A DNA stretch of 64,000 nt, from the NCBI RefSeq assembly GCF_032484785.1, contig NZ_JAUETR010000001.1, forward strand, positions 1,364,001 to 1,428,000, in the 5' to 3' direction. Position 1 is the first letter of the stretch. Every line of letters begins with the position of its first letter. A model generated the notes under the pieces. It searched no databases. It saw only the letters and a list, made by a program, of their open reading frames with translations, and had not been told where the DNA came from. The position numbers and the translations under genes are program-made. Source of the stretch: Bradyrhizobium sp. SZCCHNS1050 (GTDB lineage Bacteria; Pseudomonadota; Alphaproteobacteria; Rhizobiales; Xanthobacteraceae). Of this stretch, positions 13,860 through 38,332 are shown piece by piece.

Positions 13860-15149
<1,290 letters not shown>

Positions 15150-15153
15150 CTCC

Positions 15154-15603
15154 ATGGCCGTCTCTCTCTCGGAAGGCGATGGCGACGATGATCTCGGCGA
15201 GACGAGCGACATCAACGTCACGCCCTTCATCGACGTGATCCTGGTGCTGCTGATCATCTTCATGGTGGCGGCGCCGCTGTCGACGGTCGACGTGCCGGTC
15301 GATCTCCCGACATCGACGGCCACGCCGCAGAAGAAGCCGGACAAGCCGATCTATGTCAGCATCAAGCCGGATCTGACGCTGTTCGTCGGCGAGGAGCCGG
15401 TGAAACGGGCGAGCCTGGTGAGCACGCTCGAGCACATCCCCGAGGCGGCGAAGGACAAGTTCATCTTCCTGCGCGCCGACCGGGGCGTGGCGTATGGAGA
15501 TCTGATGGACGTGATGGAGCTGCTGCGGACCGGCGGCTATCCGAAGATCAAGCTCGTGACTGTCGAAGGCGTCTCACAGGCCGCCGCCCAGGCTGCACAT
15601 TGA
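15154..15603 (+). CDS. exbD: ExbD biopolymer transport protein
   Basis: A 149-residue protein with the ExbD layout: short cytoplasmic N-terminus, one helix and a periplasmic domain. The functional Asp lies in VTPFIDVILVLLIIFMVAAP, followed by VDVPVDLPTS. It partners ExbB to convert proton flow into TonB motion. It begins four bases after exbB and is followed by tonB after 26 bases. Confidence 0.95.
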   Translation: MAVSLSEGDGDDDLGETSDINVTPFIDVILVLLIIFMVAAPLSTVDVPVDLPTSTATPQKKPDKPIYVSIKPDLTLFVGEEPVKRASLVSTLEHIPEAAKDKFIFLRADRGVAYGDLMDVMELLRTGGYPKIKLVTVEGVSQAAAQAAH

Positions 15604-15629
15604 AACCAGTGAAACGACGGAACTGAAGA

Positions 15630-16418
15630 ATGGTCGAACACAAGTATCAGGGAGCGTCGCGCCGCTTGTGGATCTCAGCCGCGATCGGCGCCCTCATGCT
15701 GCACGGTGGCGGCGCCGCGCTCGCGGTCGTCCATCTCAGCGGCAATGACGCGGACGGCGGTCTCGGCGCGGCCGGCGCCGAATTCGCGCTCGAGATCGCC
15801 TCGCCCCAGGTCGAGGACAACGATCTTCCGCCGGGTCCCGACAGCGACGCGGCCGAAGCTGCGCCGGAGCAGATGCAGCAGACCGCCGAAGTCAAGGAGT
15901 CCGACGCCGTCAAGGACAAGCCGACCGAGACAGAGGAGGAGGCCGATCGGGTCGTCACGCAGAACGATCCCAAGAAGCCGGAGAAGGAGGAACAGCAGCA
16001 GGCAACCCAGCAGGCCGAGGCGTCGGTCGCATCTGCTGCGCAGGAAGAATCGGCCCGCAAGGCGCTGGACGAGGCCGCGCCGCCGGCCGAGACAGCCAAG
16101 GCCCCCAATCCGGGAATGGGCAAGGACAAGCAGAAGCTGACCAACGATTGGGGCCGAAAGATCAGCGCCTATTTCGAGCTGCACAAGCGCTATCCGGAAG
16201 GCAAGAAGCACAATGGCACGGTCAAGGTGGCGCTGGTGCTGAGCCGGGCCGGCAAGGTGGTGTCTGCGTCCGTCATGCAGTCGTCCGGCGACTCGATGTT
16301 CGACGATGCCGCGCTGGCGATGATCCGCCGCTCCGACCCTGTGCCTGCGCCGCCGTCCGGACTGACGGACGATCAGTTCAGCTTCAGCCTCGACGTGAAC
16401 TTCAACCAGAAGAAGTAG
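15630..16418 (+). CDS. tonB: TonB-family energy transducer
   Basis: A 262-residue protein. The N-terminal helix (about residues 12-34) carries a His (MLHGGGAALAVVH) like the one needed for ExbB coupling. An acidic and Pro/Glu/Lys-rich spacer runs to about residue 170. The C-terminal TonB domain follows: RYPEGKKHNGTVKVALVLS, GKVVSASVMQSSG, DDAALAMIRRSDPVPAPP. It spans the periplasm to power receptors such as the one at 9645. It is the last gene of exbB-exbD-tonB and is followed by a clear intrinsic terminator. Confidence 0.92.
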   Translation: MVEHKYQGASRRLWISAAIGALMLHGGGAALAVVHLSGNDADGGLGAAGAEFALEIASPQVEDNDLPPGPDSDAAEAAPEQMQQTAEVKESDAVKDKPTETEEEADRVVTQNDPKKPEKEEQQQATQQAEASVASAAQEESARKALDEAAPPAETAKAPNPGMGKDKQKLTNDWGRKISAYFELHKRYPEGKKHNGTVKVALVLSRAGKVVSASVMQSSGDSMFDDAALAMIRRSDPVPAPPSGLTDDQFSFSLDVNFNQKK

Positions 16419-16455
16419 ACCGTGCGTCGTTCGACGCGTGTATCTTGAAGACTTG

Positions 16456-16488
16456 GCAGCGTTCGCAATGGCGCGAGCGCTGCTTTTT
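16456..16488 (+). terminator. Intrinsic terminator of exbBD-tonB
   Basis: An 11-bp stem (GCAGCGTTCGC with GCGAGCGCTGC, one G-T pair) around a six-base loop is followed directly by five T. It lies 38 bases after the tonB stop. Confidence 0.85.
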
Positions 16489-16599
16489 GCGTCTGCTGGG
16501 CCTAGGTCGCGCGGACGAAGGAACGCGAGACCTTTCCGTATCCGGCCGGAATTCCCGCGAGACGACCTTTTCCAAAGTCTCCTCTCATATTCGGAGATG

Positions 16600-16725
16600 G
16601 GTATCCTCGCTGTCATCGTCCGAGGCGGACGATCCAGTACGCCGTGACGTTTCGGTTCGGCATCTGCCGCCACGGAAGTACTGGATGCCCCGCTTTCGCG
16701 AGGCACGACAGCGTTGGAGACTGCG
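16600..16725 (+). repeat. Dispersed repeat B, copy 2
   Basis: Second copy of the repeat at 12944-13072, in the same orientation, with shared blocks GCTGTCATCGTCCG, GCGGACGAT, GTACGCCGTGAC and CTGGATGC. With the first copy it flanks the exbB-exbD-tonB operon. The rest of the gap between tonB and the porin gene holds the terminator and no gene. Confidence 0.75.
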
Positions 16726-16770
16726 GGGGGCTCAGCCCACCACGCGTGCCGATTGGATGGAAACGTTCGT

Positions 16771-18699
16771 CTAGTACTGTACCCGCGCGCCGACCTGCAC
16801 CACGGTCGCCGACAGATTGTTTTCGCGGAAGTTGGAGCGCGTCTCCTCGCGCCGGACGCTGGCCCTGAGCTGCAGCAGGCGTGAGAACTTGTAGAGCATG
16901 CCGAGCTCGACCAGATAGCGGTTGTCGACCCGCGTCGTACCGGTGAACGCGTCCTCGCCATAGCCGGCGAGGAACGTGCCGACGAGCCAGGGCTCGAACT
17001 GATGCTCGATGCCGACGGTGACGTCGCGCTTGAGCACGCCGGAAATGCCGGGCTCGGTGATCTCCACCACCTGCGACTTGGCCCCCAGCGCGATCGCCGT
17101 CTCCTTGGCGAACTGCCATGTCAGATTGGCGTCGGCAATGAGACCGTTGACCGGCTTGAGCATCGGATCCTGATAGCGGCGCGTCAGATAGCCGACGGCG
17201 ACGTCGCCTGTCAGCTTGTCGGCGTAGTTGAAGGTCACGCCGGCCTCGACCGCCGTCCCGGTGGAGTCGCGGCGGAAGCCTTCGGCATCGACCGCGATGT
17301 CGTGAACGCGGCGATCGACGGCGACGTCGACGAAGGGACGGATCTCCGGCGTCAGATTGTAGGTGATGCGGCTCTGCGAGCCGTATTGGACGAAGTTGCG
17401 ATCGGCATTGCTGACGATCTGGCCGTCGACGAGCGGCGCGTTCTGGAACGCGACGCGGTCGATGGCGGCCTTGGTCGAGACCTCGACCTCCTCGAACCGC
17501 TTGGTGACGCCCGCCGAGCCGCCGACGGTGGAGGCGAGCGGAATCCTGGCGAACCGGCCGGCGAAGCGCGGCGTGCCGGGATCATCGGCATCGACGGCAA
17601 CGTGGCCCTCGCCGTTGAGCGCAAACGTATCGGTGATGTCGTAGCGCCCATTCACCTTGGCGTCGACGGTAGGCCTGCTGAGCTGCCGGAGCTTCGCATA
17701 GTCGATGTAGCCGACGCGCACATCGGCGTTGAGCAGATGCCGCTCGAACTGAGAGCGCACGAGCAGGACCGGCGCAACGCTGACGAAGGCCGAGCCCTTG
17801 CCTTGCGGCACACGGCCGGGATTGCTGTCGAAGCCTGAGGACATTTCGAACGCAGGCTTCAGGATGAAGTTTCCCACCGTGATGCCCTTGGGCTCATAGG
17901 GGTCTTCCGCCATCATCGGCGGCTGCGGCTGCTCCTGCGGCTTCTGCCCCTTGTTCACCGGCGGCAGCCGCATCTTGGGCTTGTCCGCCAGAACGGGCGG
18001 AATCGGCTGCGCATCCTGTCGCGGAATCGGCGGCAGGTTGCGCGGCAGCACGCCACGCGTGGCCGGCGGCGGACTGACGGCGAACGCCAGCGCGTCCAGG
18101 CAGCGATTGGGCACGTTCGTGACCGACAGCCGGCCCGGCGTCGACAGGCAGCCGCCGACCAGGAGGCCGGCGGACGGTGCACCGAAAAAGCCGTTTCGAA
18201 CCGGAGCCAGACGCGGCGCCGGCTCGCGGCGCGCGGCCTGCGGGAGCGCGCCCGCGCCCGCATCGATCGGAGACCGCGGCCGCGGCGGTGGAGCCTCGTC
18301 CACCTGCGTGGCCGCCTTCGGCTCCGGCTCGACCCCGCCCGGCGAAACGATCACCTGCGGAATGACCAGCGGTCCATTGCTGTTCGCCGGCCTCACCGGC
18401 TGGCGGCGGCGATTGGGTACGACCACCACCGGTCCGGCGTCGGTGGTCCCCGGATCTGCATAGGCCCTGACCTGGCTCCCCGGCGTGACGGTCTGACCGT
18501 AGGACGGCGCGACTCCGAACAGCGTCACGAGCAGCACGGTGATCGCAACCGTCTCCTCCTGGCACCGTGAGACGTCGCGACCGATGCCACGTCTGGAAGC
18601 GACCGTCTCTCGTGCTGCCCGTTCCAAAGAGCCTCGTCTCCGTCGAGTTCGGCAACCTGCGAAGCGCGGCGCCCGCGGCGTGACGCATCCCGGCATCAC
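16771..18699 (-). CDS. Outer-membrane beta-barrel protein (BBP2-like)
   Basis: A long frame of up to 642 codons. The last 400 residues have the alternating pattern of an outer-membrane barrel, with GNFILKPAFEMSSGFDSNPG and many aromatic strand ends, closing VVQVGARVQY; this resembles the putative beta-barrel porin 2 family. Before it is a Pro/Arg-rich region (about residues 80-290). A signal-peptide-like stretch (ITVLLVTLFGVAPSYGQ) lies at residues 53-69 of the long form, so the true start is probably nearer 18537 (GTG) after AGGAGGAG at suitable distance, and the first 50 codons are doubtful. Cargo unknown. The cupredoxin gene ends 16 bases upstream of the maximal frame and may be co-transcribed. 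Confidence 0.75.
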   Translation of the reverse strand: MMPGCVTPRAPRFAGCRTRRRRGSLERAARETVASRRGIGRDVSRCQEETVAITVLLVTLFGVAPSYGQTVTPGSQVRAYADPGTTDAGPVVVVPNRRRQPVRPANSNGPLVIPQVIVSPGGVEPEPKAATQVDEAPPPRPRSPIDAGAGALPQAARREPAPRLAPVRNGFFGAPSAGLLVGGCLSTPGRLSVTNVPNRCLDALAFAVSPPPATRGVLPRNLPPIPRQDAQPIPPVLADKPKMRLPPVNKGQKPQEQPQPPMMAEDPYEPKGITVGNFILKPAFEMSSGFDSNPGRVPQGKGSAFVSVAPVLLVRSQFERHLLNADVRVGYIDYAKLRQLSRPTVDAKVNGRYDITDTFALNGEGHVAVDADDPGTPRFAGRFARIPLASTVGGSAGVTKRFEEVEVSTKAAIDRVAFQNAPLVDGQIVSNADRNFVQYGSQSRITYNLTPEIRPFVDVAVDRRVHDIAVDAEGFRRDSTGTAVEAGVTFNYADKLTGDVAVGYLTRRYQDPMLKPVNGLIADANLTWQFAKETAIALGAKSQVVEITEPGISGVLKRDVTVGIEHQFEPWLVGTFLAGYGEDAFTGTTRVDNRYLVELGMLYKFSRLLQLRASVRREETRSNFRENNLSATVVQVGARVQY

Positions 18700-21715: not shown

Positions 21716-22324
21716 TCACTTCGTTCCGGAGAAGACGCGGCTGATGAAGTCGGAGCTCTCGGGCGACTTCGTCATCTCCGGCGACGGCTCGGGCTGGGCC
21801 GGCGGCTCGGTTGGTACGGATCGGATCTGCGGTCGGCTTCGGACGGTGACGCTGCGCGTCGCGCGCGCCTCCTGCTCGCCTCCGTTCGGCTTGCTCACCG
21901 TGATCATGATCTTCTCGGAGATCACGGGCGGATCGAAGTTGAGATGCCTGGTGTCGCCCAGCACGAGCTGCAGCGTGTGCTTGCCGGGCGACAATTCGAT
22001 CCGCGCCTCCGTCTCCCCCGCTGCGTAATGAACGTGTTTCTTGTCGCGCGGAATCTCCTCGCCGGCCTGCATCGTCTCGTCGACGTCGACCAGAAGATGA
22101 TGATGGCCACTGCCGGCGAAATCGTCGCCCGCATGGGTAACGCCCATGTTGCGCAGTCCGAAGCGAGCGATGAAGGGCCCGGTCACCGTCTCCCCGTCCG
22201 CAGGAGAGATGAAATAGACGCGGGCATCCTTCGCAGCCTTCGTCCCCTTGGCCGGCGCCAATGACGGCGCGAGCACGAGCGATGCGGTCAGGATGAGGCA
22301 GAGTCGCGCAGACCTCGGCAGCAT
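21716..22324 (-). CDS. Secreted DUF4399 protein (third gene of the pseudo-helicase operon)
   Basis: A 202-residue protein with a signal peptide (about residues 1-25, SLVLAPSLAPA). The core VYFISPADGETVTGPFIARFGL, GSGHHHLLVDVD and LVLGDTRHLNFDPP matches the DUF4399 family; the triple His could bind metal. The last 60 residues are Arg/Pro/Ser-rich and probably disordered. It starts nine bases after the SUMF1-type gene, so it is the last gene of a three-gene operon. The function is unknown; a periplasmic role beside the other two membrane proteins is inference. Confidence 0.85.
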   Translation of the reverse strand: MLPRSARLCLILTASLVLAPSLAPAKGTKAAKDARVYFISPADGETVTGPFIARFGLRNMGVTHAGDDFAGSGHHHLLVDVDETMQAGEEIPRDKKHVHYAAGETEARIELSPGKHTLQLVLGDTRHLNFDPPVISEKIMITVSKPNGGEQEARATRSVTVRSRPQIRSVPTEPPAQPEPSPEMTKSPESSDFISRVFSGTK

Positions 22325-22333
22325 GCAAATCCC

Positions 22334-23803
22334 CTATGGTGAGAGCGCGATGCGGAAACCCAGGGTCGGATGCCGGATGCGGCCGTCATAGCGGTCGCGG
22401 CTGCCGGCCCGCGCATCGGCGGCGCCGTTCTTCCACGATCCCGAGCGGATGACACGGGCATAGCTACCTTCCTCGAGCCAGGCCGATCCATCCGCCGGCG
22501 CGCCCTTGTAGTTCTTGTGCCAGCTGTCGGCGACCCACTGGCCGACGCCGCCGCCCATGTCGAACAGGCCGTAAGGATTGGCCTGGACGCTGCCGATCTT
22601 CGGCGGCTGGTCGGTCTCGGCGTCGCCCGTGCCGTTGCAGCCCTTGCAACTGGCCATGCCGGGGCGCATGCGATCGCCCCACCAATAGCGGGTGCGCTGG
22701 CCGCCGCGCGCGGCATATTCCCACTCGGCCTCGGTCGGCAGCCGGAACGACTTGCCGGTCGCCTTCGACAGCCAGGCGAGATAGGCCTGCGTGTCGTCGT
22801 AGCTCAGGTTGGTGACCGGACGATCATCCGCACCGGCCGCGATGTCGGCGCAGCTTGCCGCGGCGACACACTGCTTCCACTCGCCGATCGTCACGGGATG
22901 CTTGCCGAGCGAGAACGGTCGCACGCTGACCTGATGCGCCGGCTGCTCGGACTCGTCGTCGCCGCCCATCGCAAAACTGCCACCGGCGATCGCAACCAGC
23001 TCAGGCAAGCGTAGCTTCGGCCCGGCTTCCGGCGCCGGCGCGGGCCGCGGAATGGCTGCCGCGTCGGATGATCGCGCCAGCGTCGCCTCGAGTGCCGGAG
23101 CATCCTGGCGCGGCGCGATGAAGGCGCTGGACGGCGATCGCGCGGCGTCCTGGCGCGCGCCGGCGGCTTCCAGCAGGATCCGGCGCGGCGGAGGCAGCGG
23201 CGCGGCGGACTGCGCCTCCTGCTGCGAGCTCGACGATCCGGCCGACCCAGGCGGCGCCTGAATCAGCAGCCTGATCTCGCGTAGCGGCAACAGCACGCCG
23301 CCGAGGAAGACGATGCCGAGGACCACGACGCCGAGCGCTCCGCGGATCAGCTTCTTGCGCGCACCTGCCGCCGGTGCGAACACGGCCTTCAGCCGGCCGC
23401 CCTCACCCGCCTCCTCCTGATCACCGTCGCTGCCGTCGTCCCATCTGTCTGGAAGGGACGCCGCCGGCGCGGGTGACGGGCGCACCGGAGAGACTGGTGC
23501 AGGTTCTCGTCGAGCCGCACTCTCCGGCTCTGCGATCTCCCATTCGGCATCGAGCGACTGCTCGAGCGCGCCGCACATCATCAGCAACAGCCCGCCTTCG
23601 CTCTTGCCGGTCCAGCGCTCCTGCACCTCGGGACACTCGACCTGATCCTCGACGCGCAGGAAGCTCGGCGGACGCATCGGGCTGAGCGAGACCTGCACCG
23701 TGCGGCCGCAGCGCCGGCAGGCCACCGCGCGGGAATCCTCCGGCAGCGCATCCTCGGCGAGCTTGGGAGCCCGCAGCCATTGCAACGCTGAACTCTCGCT
23801 CAT
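22334..23803 (-). CDS. Membrane-anchored SUMF1-fold protein lacking FGE cysteines
   Basis: A 489-residue protein. The cytoplasmic N-terminus has a zinc-ribbon-like CRRCG at 29-33 with further cysteines at 57 and 77. One membrane helix lies at about 152-174, a Pro/Ser/Ala linker follows, and a SUMF1 (formylglycine-generating enzyme-like) domain occupies about 268-489: LVAIAGGSFAMGGDDES, YLAWLSKATGKSFRLPTEAEWEYAARGG, NPYGLFDMGGGVGQWV, RHPTLGFRIALSP. Where aerobic FGE has its catalytic cysteines this protein has GSRDRYDGR, so sulfatase activation is unlikely; a binding or structural role fits better. It begins 32 bases after the 1769-residue protein and ends nine bases before the DUF4399 gene. 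Confidence 0.88.
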   Translation of the reverse strand: MSESSALQWLRAPKLAEDALPEDSRAVACRRCGRTVQVSLSPMRPPSFLRVEDQVECPEVQERWTGKSEGGLLLMMCGALEQSLDAEWEIAEPESAARREPAPVSPVRPSPAPAASLPDRWDDGSDGDQEEAGEGGRLKAVFAPAAGARKKLIRGALGVVVLGIVFLGGVLLPLREIRLLIQAPPGSAGSSSSQQEAQSAAPLPPPRRILLEAAGARQDAARSPSSAFIAPRQDAPALEATLARSSDAAAIPRPAPAPEAGPKLRLPELVAIAGGSFAMGGDDESEQPAHQVSVRPFSLGKHPVTIGEWKQCVAAASCADIAAGADDRPVTNLSYDDTQAYLAWLSKATGKSFRLPTEAEWEYAARGGQRTRYWWGDRMRPGMASCKGCNGTGDAETDQPPKIGSVQANPYGLFDMGGGVGQWVADSWHKNYKGAPADGSAWLEEGSYARVIRSGSWKNGAADARAGSRDRYDGRIRHPTLGFRIALSP

Positions 23804-23835: not shown

Positions 23836-26800
23836 TCACTGACCCCAGCTGGCGAACACGTCCTTGAACACGCGGTCGCCGTCGGATCCCTTCTCGATCG
23901 ACAGCAGCGCCCGGTTGCCGCCCTCGTAGACGATCGGAATGTCGAACCACTGCTTGCCCTTGAGAAGCATCAGGTTGCGCTTGGTATCGACCTCGTTGGC
24001 CGACAGCGCGACCATGAAGTATTTCGGTGTCACCCGGGCGGTCTGGGTCACCAGCGCCGTCCCGCGCTCGGCCTCCTCGCCCTTGAGGCCGATGCCCCTC
24101 AGGCTGGTCAGGCCGCTGACCGACTGATCCGGCCAGTCGAACTTGAGCTCCATGATGTGACTCGCCGGCATCTCCATGTCGGCGTTCCGCCGCAGCGAGA
24201 TCGTGGCCTTGGTGCCGTTCTCGATCTCGATCTCACCCTTGATCGCCGGCGCCGTATCGAGTCGCGGCCCCTTGGTCTGCTCGATCGACCAGGTGACCTT
24301 GCCAGGATAACGCTTGCCCTTCGGATCCTGCGGATCCTCATGATAGAGGAACGCCTGCGCCGGCGTGCTGACCGGCACGCTCATGCCGACCGTGGCATGC
24401 TCCTCGGCCGCGGCGACAACCACCGGCTTGGCCTCAACCACCGGCTTGGCCTCGGGCGTGATCCGCTCTGCACTGACCTTATGGGCGCCCGGTTCGCTCG
24501 GCAGAGCCGACGCTGCCGTCGCACCGCTCAGGGACAGCTGGATCCATTCCGACGCGCGCTCCCAGGACACCGCCGCACCGACGACTGCCAGCAATCCGGC
24601 CGCGGCAAACGCCATCACCCGCCGGCTCGGCCGACGGCGGTGTGGTGCCGCGGCGTTCTCCGTCGCCTTGAACGCCATCGCGACGAGGGAGGGATGAATC
24701 TTGATCTCGGTCGCCGGCGCTGCAGAAGTCGCAGCAGAGGCTGTAGCCGCAGCAGCGGCAGCGGGCTCAGTGGTGGCAGAAGCCGCTGCCGCAGCGGGTG
24801 TCGCAACGACGGCAGGCTTCACGGGCTCTGCCGGCGCGGCGCCCGTGGACTCCGCCTCGATCTCCGCTGTGACCACCTTTTTTTCGGCAGGGCGCTGCGG
24901 CACCGCAGCCCGATCGGCGACGATGACCGGCGCTTCAGTGACGGCGGCCGCGCTCGGCTGGGTCGGCTCGACCGTGGCCGGCTGCGCGACGGTCGGCAGC
25001 TCAGGCGGAGCCGCAGTCACAACCGGCGCCACGATGTCCGCGGCCGGCTGGCGCGGCGGACGCCGGCGCAGCACGCGAATCTCCGGCGCGGGCTTGGGCG
25101 CAGCCACGCGGCTCTCGGCACGCTGCGCTATCGCGGGCGCGCCGGCGGCAGCCGTGACGATGTCCGTCCCCGAGCGGCGAGCCATCGACAGATATTTCGC
25201 GACGGTGGCGATCTCCTCTTCGAGCGAGTGCGTCGTGAAGACCTGCCGTGGCTGCGGCCGCTGCTTCGGCGCGGGCGCTGCCGCGCGGGCCGGCCGCGGC
25301 AGCTCGGCGGCTGGTGCATCGGCCGGTCTGGACGTATCGGCGGGCAGCAGCGAAGCTGTGACCGAGGCTGCCTCGACGCCGGCAGGGCGCGCGCGCAGCT
25401 CGATCATGCGATCGGGAAACAGGATCGCGGCGAGATCGCGCAGCGAGGCACCCGGCATCAGCAGCCGCCGCAGCGCTGGTGGAACGCGGCGCAGCGTGTT
25501 CGTCTCGGTGCGTTTGACAACAGGATCGTTGCGGCCGGCTTCGACCAAGGCTCCGTCGTCGTGACGCTCGTCGCTGATCAGAACCTTGCGGGCCCGCAGC
25601 ATCGCCGTCAGTTCGCGCAGATCGGAGCGCGAGGCGTGGTCGACGACCAGAAGATCGAAGGTGCCGATCCGGGCCGGCAGCAACTCGGCGACACGCCAGG
25701 CCGGCATCACGTGACAGGGAATCTCCTCGAGCCAGCCGTCGAGAGACCTGCGCGCAGCAAGCCGAAGTCGGCGTGCGGTCGGACCGGAGCAGGCCGACGC
25801 CATCTTCTGCATCGAGTCCCTGAACCGCCTCACCGCTTGCCTGACGGCGACGCCCGCATTCTGCGCGATGCCCAGCGACATGCGGGCGCCGATCACCGCT
25901 TCGAACAGGGCCAGCGACCGCGTCTCCAGCCGCGCGCGCTGAGCCGCGAGGTCATGCAGCAGCTGCCGCTCCTCCGGACTTTCGATCCGCATCAGCACGG
26001 CCCAATTCCAGGCCGCCACCCATTCCGCGAGCGTCGCCGCATCCTTCGCCTCGCCCGCGCCCGGCGCGGACCGCAGCCGCTGTGCCAGACTCGGCGCGCC
26101 CGCTGCAGTCACCATCCGGCAGGCGGTCCTGACGAGTTCGTAGTCCGGGCTGGCCTCGCGGATCTTCTCCATGGTCGCGAGAATGCCTGTCCACCGCGTT
26201 TCGAGCTCCTGCGGCTCCGTCTCGGCGTCACCGACCCGCGACAGCACGTTCTCCTGAACGGAGACAGCGAGTTCTCCCGCCCGGGCGAACAATTCGCCGA
26301 GGCGAGCGAGTTCGATCAGCGGTCCCGATACGCGCGTCATGACGGTCCGAATCGCCGCGCCGAACGCGGCCAGCCGCTGTGCATCGGCCAGCATCGCCCT
26401 GACGTCGCCGTCCGGCACCGACAGCTTGGAGCAGGCATCGGCCACGCTGCGGACGGCGAGCGCGGCCGTCACGATGGCGGCCTCGACGCTCTTGACGATG
26501 TGCTCGAGGTCATCGAACGCCCGCGCCGATTCCAATTGAAGCGCGGGTGCACCGATCTGCGTTGCGATCGACGTCCAGCGCGCGCGCAACGCATGCAGGT
26601 CGTGGCGCCACAGCAGGAAGCGCCCGACATATTGCCAGTCCGCCGGCTTCGACGGCGAGGCACCGTCCACCGTGATCGCTTCGACGGCGGCCTTCAGCGC
26701 GCGGCGCGAGGGCGAGAACCGCGCGAACGGCTTCTCGCCGGCCGCAAGCCGCTCGACCACGCGGATCGCGTCCTTCCTGGTGAACGCCTCGACCGGCGCC

Positions 26801-29145
26801 TGCACCTGGCGCCTCGCGAATTCGGCACTCCGCGACAGCTGGAACGACGCATCACGCGCCCACCCCACGACCTTGTCGAGACCTGCGGGAGCGTCAGCCT
26901 TTGCGGCGCCGAGCGGCGACAGCCGTGCAAGCCAGGTCTCCTCGGCAATGGCGCGATGGCCAGCCACCAGCGCATCGAGATCGGCCGCCAGGCGGTTGGT
27001 TGCGTCGAGCCCGAAGGTCGCGATGGCGTCGAGCGCGAGATCCTCGTCGCGGCCAGCGTCCGACGTCAGGCCTGCCTGGTGCTGCAGCTCCGCGTGCAGA
27101 CGCAGGATAGCGGCGGTGTCGGGAAGCGCCGCGAGCTCCGGCAACTCGACATCGATGTGCTTGAGATCAGCGGCAAGCCGCAGCCGCGCCTCGCGTGCCT
27201 TGTCGACCGCCGTCACGAGCGGGTCGGTGGCTGCGAGCAGGTGCTTCGGCCGGTCGGTGAACCAGGCATGCGCGTCCTGCTCGCCGACCAGCGCCTTGAA
27301 CAAATCGAACGGCAGCTCCGGCAAGCCGCCGGCGAGCCGCAGGTTACGCCGGACGATCTCGGCGATCTCGTCGTCGAGCGATGCGATCTGCGTGCGCTTC
27401 GAGATGATGTCGCGTTCGAGCCGGCCGATCTGACCGACCTGATCGCGCAGATTTGGCGTGTCCAGGATCGATTGCAGCCGGCCCGCCAGGGCTTCGGCCT
27501 TCCTGAGCACGTCCTTGTCGGAGCCGGTCGAGCTGACGGTCAGCTCGCGAATGGCCGGCGGCAGCTTCTGATGCAGCAGCGAAAGTGCAGCCTCGTCCCT
27601 GGACACGACGAGGACGCGCGAGCCGAGCGCGAGGTGATGGCAGACGACGTTGACGAGCGCCGTGATCCGATCGTCGCGTTCGACAGACTGGACCATCAGG
27701 CCATCCGACCGCGACAGTTCGCGTACGACCTCGACATCCTCCGCGACAGCCGGCAGCGGGAAGAACAGATCGCCCTGCTCGACCGCAGCAGGCTTGGGCG
27801 CAGGCGCAAGGTCGATCGGGCCGCCGACGATGCCGGACAGGTGCCGGCGCGCATTGGCGTGGCCGCGTCCATCCGGCTGCGAGAGCAGCGCGCTCACGGC
27901 TCCCGACAGGCAGCACTCACTCTGCGGCGCATGCTCGATCGCCTTCTTGAGACGGTCGATGTCGCGCAGGGCGAGGCTCTCCGGCCGCCGCCGCGCGGAT
28001 ATGACCCAGCGTCCCGACGTGAGCGCGGCCTCCGAGGCCTCCATGGCCGGCGCATCGTCCGAAGACGCGAATTTGCGCGACGTCTTGTAACCGGATTGCG
28101 CGCCTGCGGCGCTCAGGATCTGATCGAGGCCGACCGGCGTGAACGGCGACAGCTCTGCGCGCTGCTCGAGCGCCTCGACCAGGCGATCCGGCTTGTCGCG
28201 CACGGCAAGCGCCACGTCCGGCGCCACGGCATCGAGCGCCCTCAAATTGACGGTTGCGCCGACGAAGCGCGGCCGGACCCTGACCTCGGCATCCGGACGC
28301 GCAATGATCTCGATCTCGACCGCGCGCTCGAACAGCGGCAACTCGAATTCGCGCCCGCCCTGCCGCCAAGATGACAGCGCGATGCCCCACATGACCTCGA
28401 TCGCCTGATCGGCGCCGGCCGTGGCCGCCATGTCGCGCAGCCGCTGATGGATCGCCATGGTCCGGCGGCGCATGCGCTCGGTGTCGGCCCAGGCGGTCCA
28501 TGGCCCGCTGATATAGCGCTCGATCCGCTGCACGAGGTCAGGACGCTGCTCCAGACGCAGCCGTCCGGTCCAGGCGCCCAGCGCCGGGGCGGGCGAAAAA
28601 TCCTCGGGCCGTGCGTGGCGGGCGAAGGTGAGGCGGTTCTTCTCGATCTCATCGACCGTCACCACGATGCTCTCGTACGGCGATGGACGACGGTCGGGCT
28701 CGGACGACGGCTCGACCCAGATCTTGAGATCGTAGTCGATGGCGGGGGGCTGCGTCGCAGCAAGCGCCTCGACGGCGAGCCACACCGGGCCGTCAACATC
28801 GAAGGTATTGAGCACCACGCCCGGCAGACCCGCCAGCTCCTCCTGGTCGAGCGCGAAGCCATGATCGTCGGCGAATGGATGATCCGGCTGCCGCTCCGCC
28901 GGGGAGCCCTCGGCCCGAATGATCTCGGTCAGACTGCCGAGCACGTCCTGCAACGGCTCGACCACCGATCCCGTGCCGAGCGCTTCGCTCGTCGAGAACG
29001 CCCAGGCGTCGGTCGGCGACTGCGGCTCCAGGGCCGCCGCGCCGATAGCACCAAGCAGCCGCATGCCGTGATCGGCTGCACTGCTCTGCGCCTTGCGATC
29101 GCCCGCGCCGGCCTCGTTGGGCCGCACATTCACCAGCTGGCTCAT
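23836..29145 (-). CDS. Giant membrane-anchored protein with degenerate SF1 helicase core and periplasmic domain
   Basis: A 1769-residue protein, first gene of the operon. ATG 29145 follows AAGGA at eight bases; the frame is open 48 codons further but not protein-like. Residues 50-450 resemble the N-terminal region of DUF4011/AAA_11-type helicases (LAGLPGVVLNTFDVDGPVWL). Residues 482-520 match the Walker A neighbourhood (LMVQ..., SRVLVVSRDEAALSLLHQKLP), but GPPGTGKT is replaced by SVERDDRI. A long helical insert (about 550-1130) follows, then IPCHVMPAWRVAELLP and FDLLVVDHAS, where Walker B DEAS has become DHAS. The second RecA domain is absent. From about 1255 a Pro/Ala linker leads to one membrane helix (1509-1526) and a periplasmic domain (about 1585-1769). 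ATP hydrolysis is unlikely; a scaffold or sensor role is inference. Confidence 0.85.
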   Translation of the reverse strand: MSQLVNVRPNEAGAGDRKAQSSAADHGMRLLGAIGAAALEPQSPTDAWAFSTSEALGTGSVVEPLQDVLGSLTEIIRAEGSPAERQPDHPFADDHGFALDQEELAGLPGVVLNTFDVDGPVWLAVEALAATQPPAIDYDLKIWVEPSSEPDRRPSPYESIVVTVDEIEKNRLTFARHARPEDFSPAPALGAWTGRLRLEQRPDLVQRIERYISGPWTAWADTERMRRRTMAIHQRLRDMAATAGADQAIEVMWGIALSSWRQGGREFELPLFERAVEIEIIARPDAEVRVRPRFVGATVNLRALDAVAPDVALAVRDKPDRLVEALEQRAELSPFTPVGLDQILSAAGAQSGYKTSRKFASSDDAPAMEASEAALTSGRWVISARRRPESLALRDIDRLKKAIEHAPQSECCLSGAVSALLSQPDGRGHANARRHLSGIVGGPIDLAPAPKPAAVEQGDLFFPLPAVAEDVEVVRELSRSDGLMVQSVERDDRITALVNVVCHHLALGSRVLVVSRDEAALSLLHQKLPPAIRELTVSSTGSDKDVLRKAEALAGRLQSILDTPNLRDQVGQIGRLERDIISKRTQIASLDDEIAEIVRRNLRLAGGLPELPFDLFKALVGEQDAHAWFTDRPKHLLAATDPLVTAVDKAREARLRLAADLKHIDVELPELAALPDTAAILRLHAELQHQAGLTSDAGRDEDLALDAIATFGLDATNRLAADLDALVAGHRAIAEETWLARLSPLGAAKADAPAGLDKVVGWARDASFQLSRSAEFARRQVQAPVEAFTRKDAIRVVERLAAGEKPFARFSPSRRALKAAVEAITVDGASPSKPADWQYVGRFLLWRHDLHALRARWTSIATQIGAPALQLESARAFDDLEHIVKSVEAAIVTAALAVRSVADACSKLSVPDGDVRAMLADAQRLAAFGAAIRTVMTRVSGPLIELARLGELFARAGELAVSVQENVLSRVGDAETEPQELETRWTGILATMEKIREASPDYELVRTACRMVTAAGAPSLAQRLRSAPGAGEAKDAATLAEWVAAWNWAVLMRIESPEERQLLHDLAAQRARLETRSLALFEAVIGARMSLGIAQNAGVAVRQAVRRFRDSMQKMASACSGPTARRLRLAARRSLDGWLEEIPCHVMPAWRVAELLPARIGTFDLLVVDHASRSDLRELTAMLRARKVLISDERHDDGALVEAGRNDPVVKRTETNTLRRVPPALRRLLMPGASLRDLAAILFPDRMIELRARPAGVEAASVTASLLPADTSRPADAPAAELPRPARAAAPAPKQRPQPRQVFTTHSLEEEIATVAKYLSMARRSGTDIVTAAAGAPAIAQRAESRVAAPKPAPEIRVLRRRPPRQPAADIVAPVVTAAPPELPTVAQPATVEPTQPSAAAVTEAPVIVADRAAVPQRPAEKKVVTAEIEAESTGAAPAEPVKPAVVATPAAAAASATTEPAAAAAATASAATSAAPATEIKIHPSLVAMAFKATENAAAPHRRRPSRRVMAFAAAGLLAVVGAAVSWERASEWIQLSLSGATAASALPSEPGAHKVSAERITPEAKPVVEAKPVVVAAAEEHATVGMSVPVSTPAQAFLYHEDPQDPKGKRYPGKVTWSIEQTKGPRLDTAPAIKGEIEIENGTKATISLRRNADMEMPASHIMELKFDWPDQSVSGLTSLRGIGLKGEEAERGTALVTQTARVTPKYFMVALSANEVDTKRNLMLLKGKQWFDIPIVYEGGNRALLSIEKGSDGDRVFKDVFASWGQ

Positions 29146-34210: not shown

Positions 34211-35722
34211 GCTGATTCCGTTGAAAAAGTCGGCAGTAGTTTCGTCGTGAACGCCATCTGTTTCGAGGACGAATTGGCGCGTTGTGGTTCACGCGGGCGT
34301 CAGCGCGGGCATCGGGATCAGCTTGGCCATCTTACGAAGGTTCTGAGCGGCTGCAGCGAGGGTGAACTCGTCGCGTGCGCCGTTCGGCCCTCTTAGTCGC
34401 AGCCGATCTAGCTTGAGGATGCGCTTGAGATGCGCGAACAGCATCTCAATCTTCTTGCGGAGCCGGCGTGAAGTGCGGCCTTCCCATGAGCTTGCGATCT
34501 CGCGTGCCATGTCGCGAGCGCCCTCGTAGATCGAGCGCGGCACTTTTCGAGCCGGGGTGTTGGGGCAACACCTGCTTCTTAGAGAGCATGCTTGACAATC
34601 GCGCTTGCTCGCACGGTAGAGGACCGTCGTGTCGTTGTTCACCAGCGTCCCTGTAGTGGTGAGGGGGTTGCCAGCGGGGCAGCGATAGACGTCCCTGGTA
34701 TGGTCGTAGGTGAAGGCCTCACGCGAGAAGGTCCCGTCGGTGCGGGCCGACTTGTCGAAGACGGTCACGTGCGGCTCGATCCCGTGCTCGTAGACCAGCC
34801 ACCCGAGCATCTCAGCGGAGCCATAGGCGCTGTCGCCGAGAAGCCGGCTTGGATAAAGATCGAACCTTTCGATTGAACGCTCAATCATGCGCTTGGCGGC
34901 CAATACTTCTGCCTGGCGGATCGCCGTGGTCGCTTCGACATCGACGATGATCGCATTCTCGACGTCGACCAGATAGTTCGTCGAGTAGGCGAAGAAGGCT
35001 TGGCCGCCGTGCGCTCCCGTCCAGCGCGCCGCCGGGTCGGAGGGCGATACAAACTTGGGCGTGACCTCCGTCGCGGCACCGAACGCGGCATCATCAAGAA
35101 CGGCAAGATACTCGTCGATCGCTCGACCCGCAGCCTCCGGCGGAAGCCTCTTATCGCCTTCGATTCCCTTCTGCCGATTGGCATCCGCCTTGATCAGGCT
35201 CGCGTCGACTGCGAACCCTTCGCCGCCGATCAGGCGCTCCCGGATGCAGCGGCGCAAGACGGTCTCGAACACGCGACGGAAGAGATCGCTCTCACGGAAG
35301 CGGCCGTGCCTGTTCTTCGAGAACGTCGAGTGATCGGGGACGCCTCCATCTAGACCCAGCCGGCAAAACCAGCGGTATGCCAGATTGAGATGGACTTCAT
35401 CGCAGAGGCGCCGTTCCGATCGGATGCCGAAGCAATAGCCGATCAAGAGCATCCTGATCATCAGCTCCGGATCGATCGAGGGCCGCCCGATGTTGCTGTA
35501 GAACGGCGCCAGCTCCCGCCGTAAGTCCTCAAGGTCGACGAACCTATCGATCGACCGCACGAGGTGGTCGGCTGGGATGTGCCTTTCCAGCGAGAACTCA
35601 TAGAACAACGCAGCCTGTTCGACTTGCCGATGCCCCATCATGACCTTCAGTCCTGCCCACTAGACAGACTGAATCACCGATATCTCTGCGTCGCAACTGC
35701 TGACTTTTTCAACGAAATCAGC
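34211..35722 (-). mobile_element. IS1182-type insertion sequence with 26-bp terminal inverted repeats
   Basis: The ends 34211-34236 and 35697-35722 are inverted repeats matching at 24 of 26 positions; both contain GTTGAAAAAGTC in the appropriate orientation. The element is about 1.5 kb and encodes one transposase. I see no convincing direct target duplication at the ends. It lies 158 bases after the RND pump gene and at the edge of the accessory island. Confidence 0.85.
34289..35641 (-). CDS. IS1182 family transposase
   Basis: A 450-residue transposase, apparently intact. The N-terminal DUF772-type domain (LERHIPADHLVRSIDRFVDL, GRPSIDPELMIRMLLIGYCFGIRSERRL) is followed by a DDE catalytic domain: VPDHSTFSKNRHGRF, FAVDASLIKADA (first Asp), LLGDSAYGSAEM (second Asp) and the C-terminal YEGARDMAREI region for Glu. 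Zinc-like cysteines (CQACSLRSRCCP) sit in the insertion. Full length and unbroken frame suggest recent activity. Confidence 0.93.
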   Translation of the reverse strand: MMGHRQVEQAALFYEFSLERHIPADHLVRSIDRFVDLEDLRRELAPFYSNIGRPSIDPELMIRMLLIGYCFGIRSERRLCDEVHLNLAYRWFCRLGLDGGVPDHSTFSKNRHGRFRESDLFRRVFETVLRRCIRERLIGGEGFAVDASLIKADANRQKGIEGDKRLPPEAAGRAIDEYLAVLDDAAFGAATEVTPKFVSPSDPAARWTGAHGGQAFFAYSTNYLVDVENAIIVDVEATTAIRQAEVLAAKRMIERSIERFDLYPSRLLGDSAYGSAEMLGWLVYEHGIEPHVTVFDKSARTDGTFSREAFTYDHTRDVYRCPAGNPLTTTGTLVNNDTTVLYRASKRDCQACSLRSRCCPNTPARKVPRSIYEGARDMAREIASSWEGRTSRRLRKKIEMLFAHLKRILKLDRLRLRGPNGARDEFTLAAAAQNLRKMAKLIPMPALTPA

Positions 35723-35803
35723 CCATTACGGACACTGAGCAGAATCTTAACCTGCGGTAGCGAGGCGGGCTGTCGCGGGCCTCAGCACGGGCGGTAACGA
35801 AGG

Positions 35804-36664
35804 TCAGCTTCCCGGAAGCTTAGCAAACGCCTCGCGCAACTTCGGACCCGGCCCAACGGTGTATTTAGCGGGGTTTTTCGGATCCCGACGCTCGTCCGGG
35901 ATGACGACGATCTCCATCATCTCGGGCAATTCCAGATTCTCGTTTGCCCACGTTACCAGCATGTCCTCTCCCAAGGTCAAGAGGTTATGGATAAATGCGT
36001 CGAAGTCGGCGCGAATCGAAGACGGCTCGGTCGCGTTCTTGCCATCCTTCACCCGGTGCCAGACTGGCTCGCTGAGCATCAGATCTGGATCGAGACGGAA
36101 GTTTTCAATCACAAGCCTGCCGCTGTAGCCGTCTGGATGCTCCACCGCGTTACGCATGGCGATTGCTTCTTCGACGAACGGCGCCGCTTCGACTAACATC
36201 TTCGTCCTGGCATCGTCCGGGCCGAAGGTCTCCTTCGCAAATTCGATCAGCGACTTCCCGCCCTTCCGCGCCTTCGAGAACTCGCTCGCCTCGGAGAATG
36301 AAGTGCCATAGAGCTTGTTTACCACGTAAAGCACGTCGCGAATGTAATTCTTCGCCTCGTATAGGAAGTTGTGGCAGTCCGCTTCCAGCCGGTCGATCTG
36401 CGGAACCTCGACCAGCGCGTTGGGTGTCGCAGGCGGCTTAAACTTTGCAGCCGCTTCCGCGAATGACTTCTTGAACGAGTCTTCGATTTCCCAGCATCGC
36501 AGCAATTTCTTCATCAGTGAGTTAAGATAGAGGCTGCCGACCTTGTCTTTGACCTCTTTTGTCACCTTGCACTTCTCCAGAATCTGCAGAGTCTGAAGCG
36601 ATAGGCGTGCAACAATCGGGTTGTCGACGCCGTGGCTGGCAAATTTCTTAATCTCGAAGGACAT
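35804..36664 (-). CDS. Protein with an RX4H (HEPN-like) motif, function unknown
   Basis: A mostly helical 286-residue protein with no signal peptide. EEAIAMRNAVEHPDGY (about 165-180) contains R171-N-A-V-E-H176, an RX4H arrangement like the catalytic motif of HEPN ribonucleases, placed after a helix as in that fold. The rest matches nothing I can name. Start 36664 (MSFEIKKF) follows AGAGG; ATG 36685 and longer starts are alternatives, but the farthest overlap the 69-residue gene. It is the third of three minus-strand genes with a ParA-type ATPase, in a region whose base composition looks less GC-rich than its surroundings. A defence or toxin-like role is inference. Confidence 0.65.
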   Translation of the reverse strand: MSFEIKKFASHGVDNPIVARLSLQTLQILEKCKVTKEVKDKVGSLYLNSLMKKLLRCWEIEDSFKKSFAEAAAKFKPPATPNALVEVPQIDRLEADCHNFLYEAKNYIRDVLYVVNKLYGTSFSEASEFSKARKGGKSLIEFAKETFGPDDARTKMLVEAAPFVEEAIAMRNAVEHPDGYSGRLVIENFRLDPDLMLSEPVWHRVKDGKNATEPSSIRADFDAFIHNLLTLGEDMLVTWANENLELPEMMEIVVIPDERRDPKNPAKYTVGPGPKLREAFAKLPGS

Positions 36665-36885
36665 GGCGACCTCTGGGAGCGCCATCCTAATACCTTGTAA
36701 GACTACCGGCGCAAGGCCGTAGCAGCCCGGGGCGATAGGGATGCAGTGCGGTTGGACGCCTCTCATGGCGCCTTTTGGCACCAATCCGACATACCGGGGC
36801 AGTGTGCCGATGTTCGTTGGTCGGGTAGACCGGAAGCGGCCCGCCGGCGATCGGAACGACGCGAACAGACCTTCCCGGACGCTAG

Positions 36886-37095
36886 CTATTTGAATGCGTC
36901 GATGTAGGCGGTCGCGTTGCCTGGATCTCGGACAGAGAGAAGGCAGAGCGCGTAGGTCTTCAATATCCAAGCTCGATCGGCCGTCGATGCTCCGTTGAGC
37001 TGCTTTTTCTCGGCCTTCCCGATAAGCTCGAGCAGCTTGTAAGCGACTTGCTCCTTGGTGTTGTCTTCCACGCGAACCGTTGCGGCATCAGTCAT
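36886..37095 (-). CDS. Small hypothetical protein (69 aa)
   Basis: Starts MTDAATVRVEDNTKEQVAYKL and is predicted mostly helical, with no membrane segment. AAGGG lies eight bases before the ATG, a good ribosome site. I recall similar short proteins in Rhizobiales but no function. It lies between the ParA-type gene (194 bases upstream) and the RX4H-motif gene (221 bases downstream), all on the minus strand. Confidence 0.7.
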   Translation of the reverse strand: MTDAATVRVEDNTKEQVAYKLLELIGKAEKKQLNGASTADRAWILKTYALCLLSVRDPGNATAYIDAFK

Positions 37096-37289
37096 TTTGA
37101 GATCCCTTGATGTCTAGTACGCGCTCAACCTATACGTTTCGACCGCCGGCGTCGATCCGCTGAAGGTCATGAAGCAGACCCGCCACGCGAGGGTCGACGC
37201 CACTGAAGGGCTACGACGGGCGCGAGAACGATTTCGATGACCACGCTGGCGAGGAGTTTCTGTAATTGTGCGTCATCCGCGGTGGCCGC

Positions 37290-38306
37290 TTAAAGCTTGG
37301 AAACCAGCATGTTGATGCTTTTGAGAACATCCCTGCGATAGTCTTCTTTAACTTGGACTCGATGGCCGCCAATATCCTGTTTGCCAGCCGAGAGGCGCGA
37401 AAACGGACAGCCCTTAGCGAATGCGACGACGCCTGTGGTCTGGAAGTCTCGGATCTCGCACGTGCCGTCGCTGATCTTGCTAAAAGTGAAAAGCTCCGGG
37501 TGGATCTTCAGCAGTGCACCAATGTCTCGCTCGATTTCGGACAGCACAGCGGCGTAAGCGGAAGCAGGGCCCATATATTGCGTAATGCGATTCTTAGCGA
37601 TGAGATGAACCTGGGGAAGCTTCCGTCCCGCTTTTGCCAGCTTCGTATTGAAGGCGTACGTCGTATAGATCTCGGACGGCAGCTTCAACCCGTACACGAG
37701 CGACAGCGCATTCTGAACCGCGCGACGGGAAGAGTCGTCAGCCATCACGGGCAATACGAGTCGATCCACTGATGCCAGCGCAATCTGCGTGTAGATCGAG
37801 AAGCTCGGATTGCAGTCCACGAAGATGGTGTCGTAATCGTCCTCGCATTTTGCAAGAAAATCATTCAACCAATCGACGACGGCAATCCAGGTATCGGTAC
37901 CGGGAACCTGGGTGTTAGAGAGCGTGTTAATAGCATTCGATTGCAGCTCCAGTAGAGGGTCGCCGCAAACCAAAGCAATGTTGCTGGGAATCAGGGGATT
38001 AAAATCATCCGGGTCTGTGACGAAATCTTCGGGGTCGAAGACCGGCGGCGAGAACGGAGATGGCAGACGGAGCTGGAAGTAGCCGCCAAGGCTGCAACGA
38101 GGTACGAGGCCCTGGCGCTGCAGCAGCTTGTGTCCTCCCTTATTAGTAAGGCCGCCGAGAAAAAGTTCGGACAGATTGGCCTGTGGACAGGCGTCCACTA
38201 CCAAAATACGTTTTTTTGGATTTTTCTCAGCGTAGCGGCAGATTGCCTGGAAAGCCAAGCTCGTCTTGCCAGTTCCGCCTTTGTTGTTCCAGAACGCGTA
38301 GCGCAT
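37290..38306 (-). CDS. ParA/MinD-type ATPase
   Basis: A 338-residue P-loop ATPase. MRYAFWNNKGGTGKTSLAF carries the deviant Walker A KGGTGKT, RILVVDACPQANLSELFLGG the second ParA motif (with Cys where Asp is usual in DPQ), and DTIFVDCNPSFSIYTQIAL the Walker B-like segment with adjacent Asp. Start 38306 is preferred over ATG 38318 because GGAG lies seven bases before it. No ParB or centromere is seen, so it is probably an orphan or accessory ParA, not a replicon partition gene. A strong promoter with palindromic sites lies just upstream. Confidence 0.85.
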   Translation of the reverse strand: MRYAFWNNKGGTGKTSLAFQAICRYAEKNPKKRILVVDACPQANLSELFLGGLTNKGGHKLLQRQGLVPRCSLGGYFQLRLPSPFSPPVFDPEDFVTDPDDFNPLIPSNIALVCGDPLLELQSNAINTLSNTQVPGTDTWIAVVDWLNDFLAKCEDDYDTIFVDCNPSFSIYTQIALASVDRLVLPVMADDSSRRAVQNALSLVYGLKLPSEIYTTYAFNTKLAKAGRKLPQVHLIAKNRITQYMGPASAYAAVLSEIERDIGALLKIHPELFTFSKISDGTCEIRDFQTTGVVAFAKGCPFSRLSAGKQDIGGHRVQVKEDYRRDVLKSINMLVSKL

Positions 38307-38332
38307 CGCTGGCTCCATGGTATGTCAACGTC

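Follow-up and report, generated by a model that had tools for sequence, protein, structure and literature searches.

A predicted membrane-anchored pseudohelicase family in Bradyrhizobium, related to helicase-nucleases

Related systems and the locus

Helicase-nucleases that combine AAA_11, AAA_12 and MTES_1575 domains, such as P0043 of Methylobacterium durans, are the closest described relatives of a protein encoded in a 64,000-nucleotide stretch of Bradyrhizobium sp. SZCCHNS1050 (contig NZ_JAUETR010000001.1, positions 1,364,001 to 1,428,000; hereafter the window). The named models nearest to these enzymes are antiphage_ProA and Hhe in NCBIfam and PDC-S37 in PADLOC. Common ancestry extends over residues ~60-1254, including a long helical insertion, but the window protein and its family lack the phosphate-binding loop (P-loop), the DE of Walker B, motif III, the second RecA domain (RecA2) and the nuclease, and add a transmembrane (TM) helix and a C-terminal domain. 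Compared with the superfamily 1B (SF1B) helicases Upf1, IGHMBP2 and Dna2, whose structures are solved, the window protein is half a motor with a predicted anchor and no ATP site.

Known pseudohelicases such as RecC and AddB are soluble and act with nucleic acid. The window protein resembles them in keeping a helicase fold without motor activity, to judge from its sequence; unlike them, it continues into a TM helix and an outside domain, and its gene adjoins envelope genes. Other known cases are PriA of Deinococcus radiodurans (PMC4504706) and Utp25 (PMC9539457). Among the papers listed by a literature search, there was no report of a membrane-anchored pseudohelicase with a periplasmic domain, and none on the window's family.

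In a group of photosynthetic soil bacteria, a DNA/RNA-unwinding motor seems to have become a motor-dead inner-membrane protein with an outside domain, perhaps with a role in a signal-relaying or scaffolding complex. If so, a nucleic-acid motor has been put to use across a membrane, possibly in signalling. The evidence from homology, phylogeny and structure comparison is consistent, and confirms that the reading frame and its motif loss are beyond chance; there is little doubt about the protein's ancestry, its lost motor site or the order of its domains. The genome itself has two photosynthetic reaction-centre matches (PF00124). The gene and its parts are as follows.

23836..29145, minus strand: coding sequence of the transmembrane pseudohelicase, 1769 amino acids (ATG at 29145, stop ending at 23836)
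27856..28974, minus strand: residues 58-430, N-terminal helices and beta region, homologous to intact helicases and covered by the Upf1 structure match; we take it to be 1B-like, a domain name borrowed from Upf1
27664..27687, minus strand: residues 487-494, former Walker A, SVERDDRI instead of GPPGTGKT, with the family signature [DE]R replacing GK
25771..27540, minus strand: residues 536-1125, long helical insertion from motif Ia to motif II, which intact relatives have too
25630..25644, minus strand: residues 1168-1172, former Walker B, VDHAS, with Asp1169 retained and the catalytic Glu replaced
24646..25383, minus strand: residues 1255-1500, fast-evolving Pro/Ala-rich linker (dN/dS, the ratio of nonsynonymous to synonymous change, 0.58) in place of the relatives' RecA2 and nuclease
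24562..24618, minus strand: residues 1510-1528, TM helix predicted from hydropathy, N-in/C-out by its flanking Arg (dN/dS 0.159 for 1501-1530)
23839..24354, minus strand: residues 1598-1769, predicted periplasmic domain with an IalB-like fold, from a model and relatives

AGAAGGA stands 8 nt ahead of the ATG. The original prediction left the minus strand unsaid, but its 1769-residue frame is real and all the flank and motif sequences that it quoted are present in the protein.

Loss of the motor site

We compared the motifs in an alignment of 132 rows (24 of clade A and 27 of clade B, the two parts of the family, and 81 intact), after removing L001 and L002, which are copies of the window gene and of the paralog locus L005. 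Since the 51 family rows hold 48 distinct sequences, judged on the last 600 residues, the motif counts are of sequences and not of events. Intact rows have GPPGTGK[TS] at the P-loop in all 81 cases, where residues 487-494 of the window protein are SVERDDRI, and DEAS in 80 (the remaining row is gapped), where residues 1169-1172 are DHAS. Both replacements had been proposed, and both hold. The loss is also family-wide, with the Walker A pattern GxxxxGK[ST] in 0/51 family rows, which rules out a private mutation of the window copy.

The P-loop was not simply lost, however: GKT is gone, and a conserved [DE]R stands there. The position of the Walker Lys is Arg in 50/51 family rows (P0041 keeps Lys), the preceding Gly has become Asp or Glu in 49, and the [DE]R pair is jointly present in 49. 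The Walker B Asp is retained in all 51 rows, and its Glu in three. With this charged motif at the ATP site and the Walker B Asp kept, the protein is predicted to be unable to run as a motor; Arg493 may contact Asp1169 in the old site. The pattern looks like stepwise motif loss with a selected replacement. A graded series runs from intact relatives through the early-branching P0041, which has the Walker Lys and DE (it reads IIDEAS and GDDKQVEP), and clade B, with a partial P-loop, to clade A, with none, so the conversion from motor to non-motor is directly testable.

The [DE]R site might instead hold a nucleotide or another anion as a switch. The change from Lys to Arg is not random and the Walker B Asp is invariant; in clade B, the last P-loop position is Thr or Ser in 19/27 rows and the Q-motif Gln is present in 26/27, compared with 0/24 in clade A. 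The first P-loop Gly is likewise kept in 24/27 clade B rows. By contrast, clade A has Gly at none of the three P-loop Gly positions in any of its 24 rows, an acidic residue occupies the last Gly position in nearly the whole family, and clade A no longer has a recognisable motif III (GDDKQVSP). We think such a switch improbable.

Homology to intact helicases stops near residue 1254, at the relatives' motif LREHFRCVEPII. The AAA_12 and MTES_1575 regions, both in P0043, are not in the window protein, and the predicted absence of RecA2 is borne out. A Pfam search with the whole protein gave no family at E<=1, and Pfam, PADLOC and PDB sequence searches with this protein alone gave nothing useful (the single PADLOC match has E 0.025). 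Of the proposed family label, the AAA_11 part is right, the relatives being AAA_11/AAA_12/MTES_1575 helicase-nucleases; the DUF4011 part is not, as the protein has no Pfam DUF4011 domain and in this genome PF13195 matches a single, different gene, a 1614-aa frame.

Structure prediction placed the strand-helix elements of a RecA domain round both former motifs, where the prediction had expected such a fold, and the core model superposes on SF1 helicases, Upf1 included. The core thus shows SF1B (Upf1-like, AAA_11) ancestry and the fold of the first RecA domain.

Membrane anchor and C-terminal domain

The proposed order of Pro/Ala linker, membrane anchor and outside domain also agrees with our results. 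Residues 1510-1528 are the most hydrophobic stretch of the protein (Kyte-Doolittle 2.06) and have Arg residues ahead of them, and the strongest hydrophobic stretch lies at the equivalent place in 36/39 other family proteins. In the other three (P0021, P0031 and P0037) it ranks lower than a core segment, and it is weakest in P0021 (1.47). Hydropathy and the flanking Arg suggest a single-pass topology with a periplasmic C-terminus.

The C-terminal domain was modelled with a predicted local distance difference test score (pLDDT) of 86.6 and has an IalB-like fold. It differs from IalB (PDB 3dtd) in having no Pfam match, with 0 families at E<=10, and in being part of larger proteins. The domain family has thousands of members, and we saw no Pfam model for it. 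Two further proteins of the same genome carry this domain. One is caspase-like (Peptidase_C14; L003:751-2184, C1 ~2558752-2560185), with a start that resembles a signal peptide by eye ahead of the shared domain. The gene for the other (L004:1390-3039, C1 ~4032008-4033657) is directly behind a gene recognised by eye as adenylosuccinate-synthetase-like.

Distribution and selection

A protein search, in which only the 7990 candidates with most shared words were scored, gave 52 proteins at E<=0.001. Identity to the window protein is 61-97% for P0003-P0020 and 40-53% for P0021-P0041; each of these hits that bears an organism name is from Bradyrhizobium. In P0042-P0054 the enzyme is intact, with AAA_11, AAA_12 and mostly also MTES_1575; the best of them are 34% identical to the query across two thirds of its length. 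In an 84,980-species genome collection, 286 relatives were found, and the best 80 matches, which were kept, are 78 distinct loci. Ten of these lack the P-loop and have the C-terminal domain, as do the window gene and a paralog in its own genome (49% identity). In the remaining 68 loci the P-loop is intact and the C-terminal domain is absent, although some frames, those of L030, L033 and L048 at least, are incomplete.

In a quick, midpoint-rooted tree of 68 rows (19 of odd letter make-up, with three long end branches), a branch with Shimodaira-Hasegawa-like approximate likelihood ratio test (SH-aLRT) support of 100 separates the 27 P-loop-less rows from all others, and one change accounts for the loss. 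Nearest to them are 14 intact rows, including Methylobacterium, Microvirga, B. canariense and Rps. palustris, and clade A is placed among B-like rows on a branch of 0.51.

Motif loss resembles decay, and a decaying pseudogene, or two genes fused by assembly or annotation, would be a trivial explanation. Yet the frame is open from the helicase part into the C-terminal domain in 12/12 loci, two paralogs are maintained, the gene cassette described below is conserved, and mean dN/dS by the Nei-Gojobori method is well below 1 in all regions measured. In clade A (15 pairs), it is 0.315 for the gene, 0.215 for the former P-loop and motif Ia, 0.260 for the helical insertion, 0.290 for the Walker B region, 0.159 for the TM segment and 0.202 for the C-terminal domain, compared with 0.581 for the linker and 0.532 for the N-terminal leader. 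Clade B is similar (gene 0.326, C-terminal domain 0.165, Walker B region 0.372). The open frames, cassette and dN/dS rule out a pseudogene or mis-assembly of the window gene; as far as sequence can refute this explanation, it is refuted, and we give it almost no weight. The protein combines helicase homology, absent catalytic motifs and maintenance by selection, as expected of a pseudohelicase.

A 60-genome sample of the genus, the window's own included, was queried with a 137-residue Walker B segment and gave matches in four genomes: twice in its own and once each in G008, G015 and G027. The G015 copy (L129) is intact, with P-loop and DEAS. In L094 and L096, Walker B, motif III and the C-terminal part match the intact type, and the P-loop lies beyond the stretch examined. 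The dead form was thus seen in 1/60 genomes. In the own genome, the matches over most of the length of intact P0043 are the two dead copies only, with shorter stretches of two other helicase-like frames, so this search does not support an intact copy in the same genome as a partner of the pseudohelicase. Upstream of the paralog, on the opposite strand, are Porin_O_P-like and secretin-like genes (L005:15936-19901), matched at 76-89% identity in 5/5 clade B loci compared.

Gene neighbourhood

Two genes follow the pseudohelicase on the same strand, with gaps of 32 and 9 nt.

22334..23803, minus strand: second cassette gene, 489 aa, with an N-terminal piece bearing conserved cysteines, a TM helix and a domain of the formylglycine-generating enzyme (FGE)-sulfatase fold
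21716..22324, minus strand: third cassette gene, a DUF4399 protein of 202 aa whose start resembles a signal peptide by eye

In the window and in 11/11 other family loci, from both paralog groups, the FGE-fold and DUF4399 genes lie downstream of the dead helicase. Near the 68 intact loci we found no DUF4399 relative, and remote FGE relatives near two (L066 and L044); since many of those contigs are short, this absence is weak evidence. The three genes are probably co-transcribed, and their products, the partners of which look like envelope proteins, may form a complex. The best PDB match of the FGE-fold domain is PvdO, followed by ToxD and PorK-type chains, and the alignments shown are not to FGE. 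The segment after GGS[WY], which we take to be the site of the active-site Cys pair in true formylglycine-generating enzymes, reads SGSWKNGAADARAGSRDR and has no Cys, so the domain may be non-catalytic.

Five of six clade genomes examined have the cassette in two copies, in conserved settings (the sixth, G063, strain 83002, has one strong FGE copy; the others have two each). This distribution, which is not that of a patchy island, speaks against the idea that the protein still serves in defence, for example as a membrane sensor that triggers partners against phage. Its ancestry would fit such a role: P0043 matches PDC-S37 (1e-64), Hhe (7.5e-37) and antiphage_ProA (1.1e-67), and the window protein still matches the last (NF058533) weakly, as its sole NCBIfam match, over residues 628-1190 with 19 bits and E 1.9e-4. 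However, both proteins score far under the 1500-bit equivalog cut-off (P0043 has 228.6 bits) and the nuclease is lost. We consider a defence role unlikely.

A related arrangement occurs in other Bradyrhizobium. A protein with the TM-FGE part occurs in 42/59 other genomes of the genus (E<=6e-87, 47-57% identity), with matches beginning at residue 149 or later of the 489. In all 12 neighbourhoods that we read (L110-L121), the FGE frame is followed by DUF4399, and none of these fetched stretches has a dead helicase or a relative of its C-terminal domain. Unlike the window protein, in which Pfam found no such domain, these proteins have a class III cyclase domain on the N-terminal side of the TM helix (8/8 scanned, E 2.2e-10 to 1.6e-12); the string YGDGVN occurs in 12/12 and the N-terminal RRLAAI..YSRLM in 11/12. 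The dead-helicase clade has the short conserved-cysteine piece in the cyclase position, and a cyclase-FGE query gave strong FGE matches in six clade genomes (the own genome and those of L010-L014) only from residue 241 on. A literature search on class III cyclase-TM-FGE fusions with DUF4399 found no paper. Genes of another cyclase-TM family were seen in three clade genomes (L128:1361-3070, L130:907-2628 on the minus strand and L131:1167-2969); the C-terminal parts of their products carry cysteines and, judged by eye, are not FGE.

Possible roles

We propose that an Upf1-like SF1B helicase-nuclease (AAA_11/AAA_12/MTES_1575) lost its second RecA domain and nuclease and acquired a Pro/Ala linker, followed by one predicted inner-membrane helix and a putative periplasmic domain of IalB-like fold. 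The half-motor and helical insertion would most likely be a non-catalytic cytosolic docking platform that connects across the membrane with a periplasmic complex including the FGE-fold and DUF4399 proteins. The function is read from the neighbouring genes, and the cytosol-periplasm coupling is likewise our inference. On balance, we favour the whole statement that the protein is a non-catalytic scaffold or receptor arm working with its cassette partners, and regard the receptor part as less probable than the whole.

The cyclase part is gone in the dead-helicase clade, with the pseudohelicase upstream instead, which suggests that a periplasmic sensing module now has the pseudohelicase as its cytosolic output or as the scaffold for that output. 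The difference thereby offers a concrete hypothesis for the role of the periplasmic FGE/DUF4399 module. In its most specific form, the helicase fold would be the cytosolic arm of a transmembrane receptor, in which the FGE/DUF4399 module, elsewhere fused to a class III cyclase, is coupled to a motor-dead Upf1-like half-helicase with its ATP pocket remade into a fixed [DE]R-Asp lock. This form is less likely than not; if true, it would add a new type of signalling output or transmembrane scaffold.

The main rival is a membrane-tethered nucleic-acid binder, an ATPase-less half-motor that still holds single-stranded DNA or RNA, with the protein tethering or sensing nucleic acid at the inner membrane and passing this on to the periplasm. 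RecA2, which is half of the groove in Upf1-type enzymes, is gone, and the partner genes look like those of envelope proteins. On the other hand, the motif Ia block (VCHHLALGxRVLVVSR) and the block preceding motif II are among the most conserved parts, in line with the low dN/dS of both regions. The PriA pseudohelicase of D. radiodurans is reported to have kept DNA binding in the absence of ATPase activity (PMC4504706). We consider such a tether possible but doubtful.

Several observations weigh against the scaffold or receptor reading that we prefer. Motif Ia residues remain well conserved, perhaps needlessly for a pure scaffold, and clade B retains the Q-motif Gln and the first P-loop Gly. 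The pseudohelicase could be a mere bystander upstream of a conserved pair. The neighbourhoods read are 12 of the 42, the dead-helicase genomes hold other cyclase-TM proteins (the longer matches 38-42% identical to the cyclase-FGE query over the cyclase and TM part, and the three read with a different C-terminus), and the cyclase difference marks a single clade and is thus one event. In addition, the core model has a predicted template modelling score (pTM) of only 0.60, and Foldseek by itself matched neither the core nor the C-terminal model to anything at E<=0.001; for the core, it listed unrelated long helical chains first and gave Upf1 an E of 0.03. The fold assignments depend on VIA-align, plus sequence homology for the core.

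Other features of the window

A plus-strand open reading frame (ORF) of 1405 aa (24157-28374) lies antisense within the pseudohelicase gene and is probably a by-product of base composition. Adjoining ExbB-like, TonB-like and BBP2_2 porin genes at 13860-18699 possibly encode an uptake system. A transposase gene (34289-35641), a family-less ORF (35804-36970) and a gene for a ParA-like ATPase (37290-38318) are on one strand, and the region 34289-38318 may be a mobile remnant.
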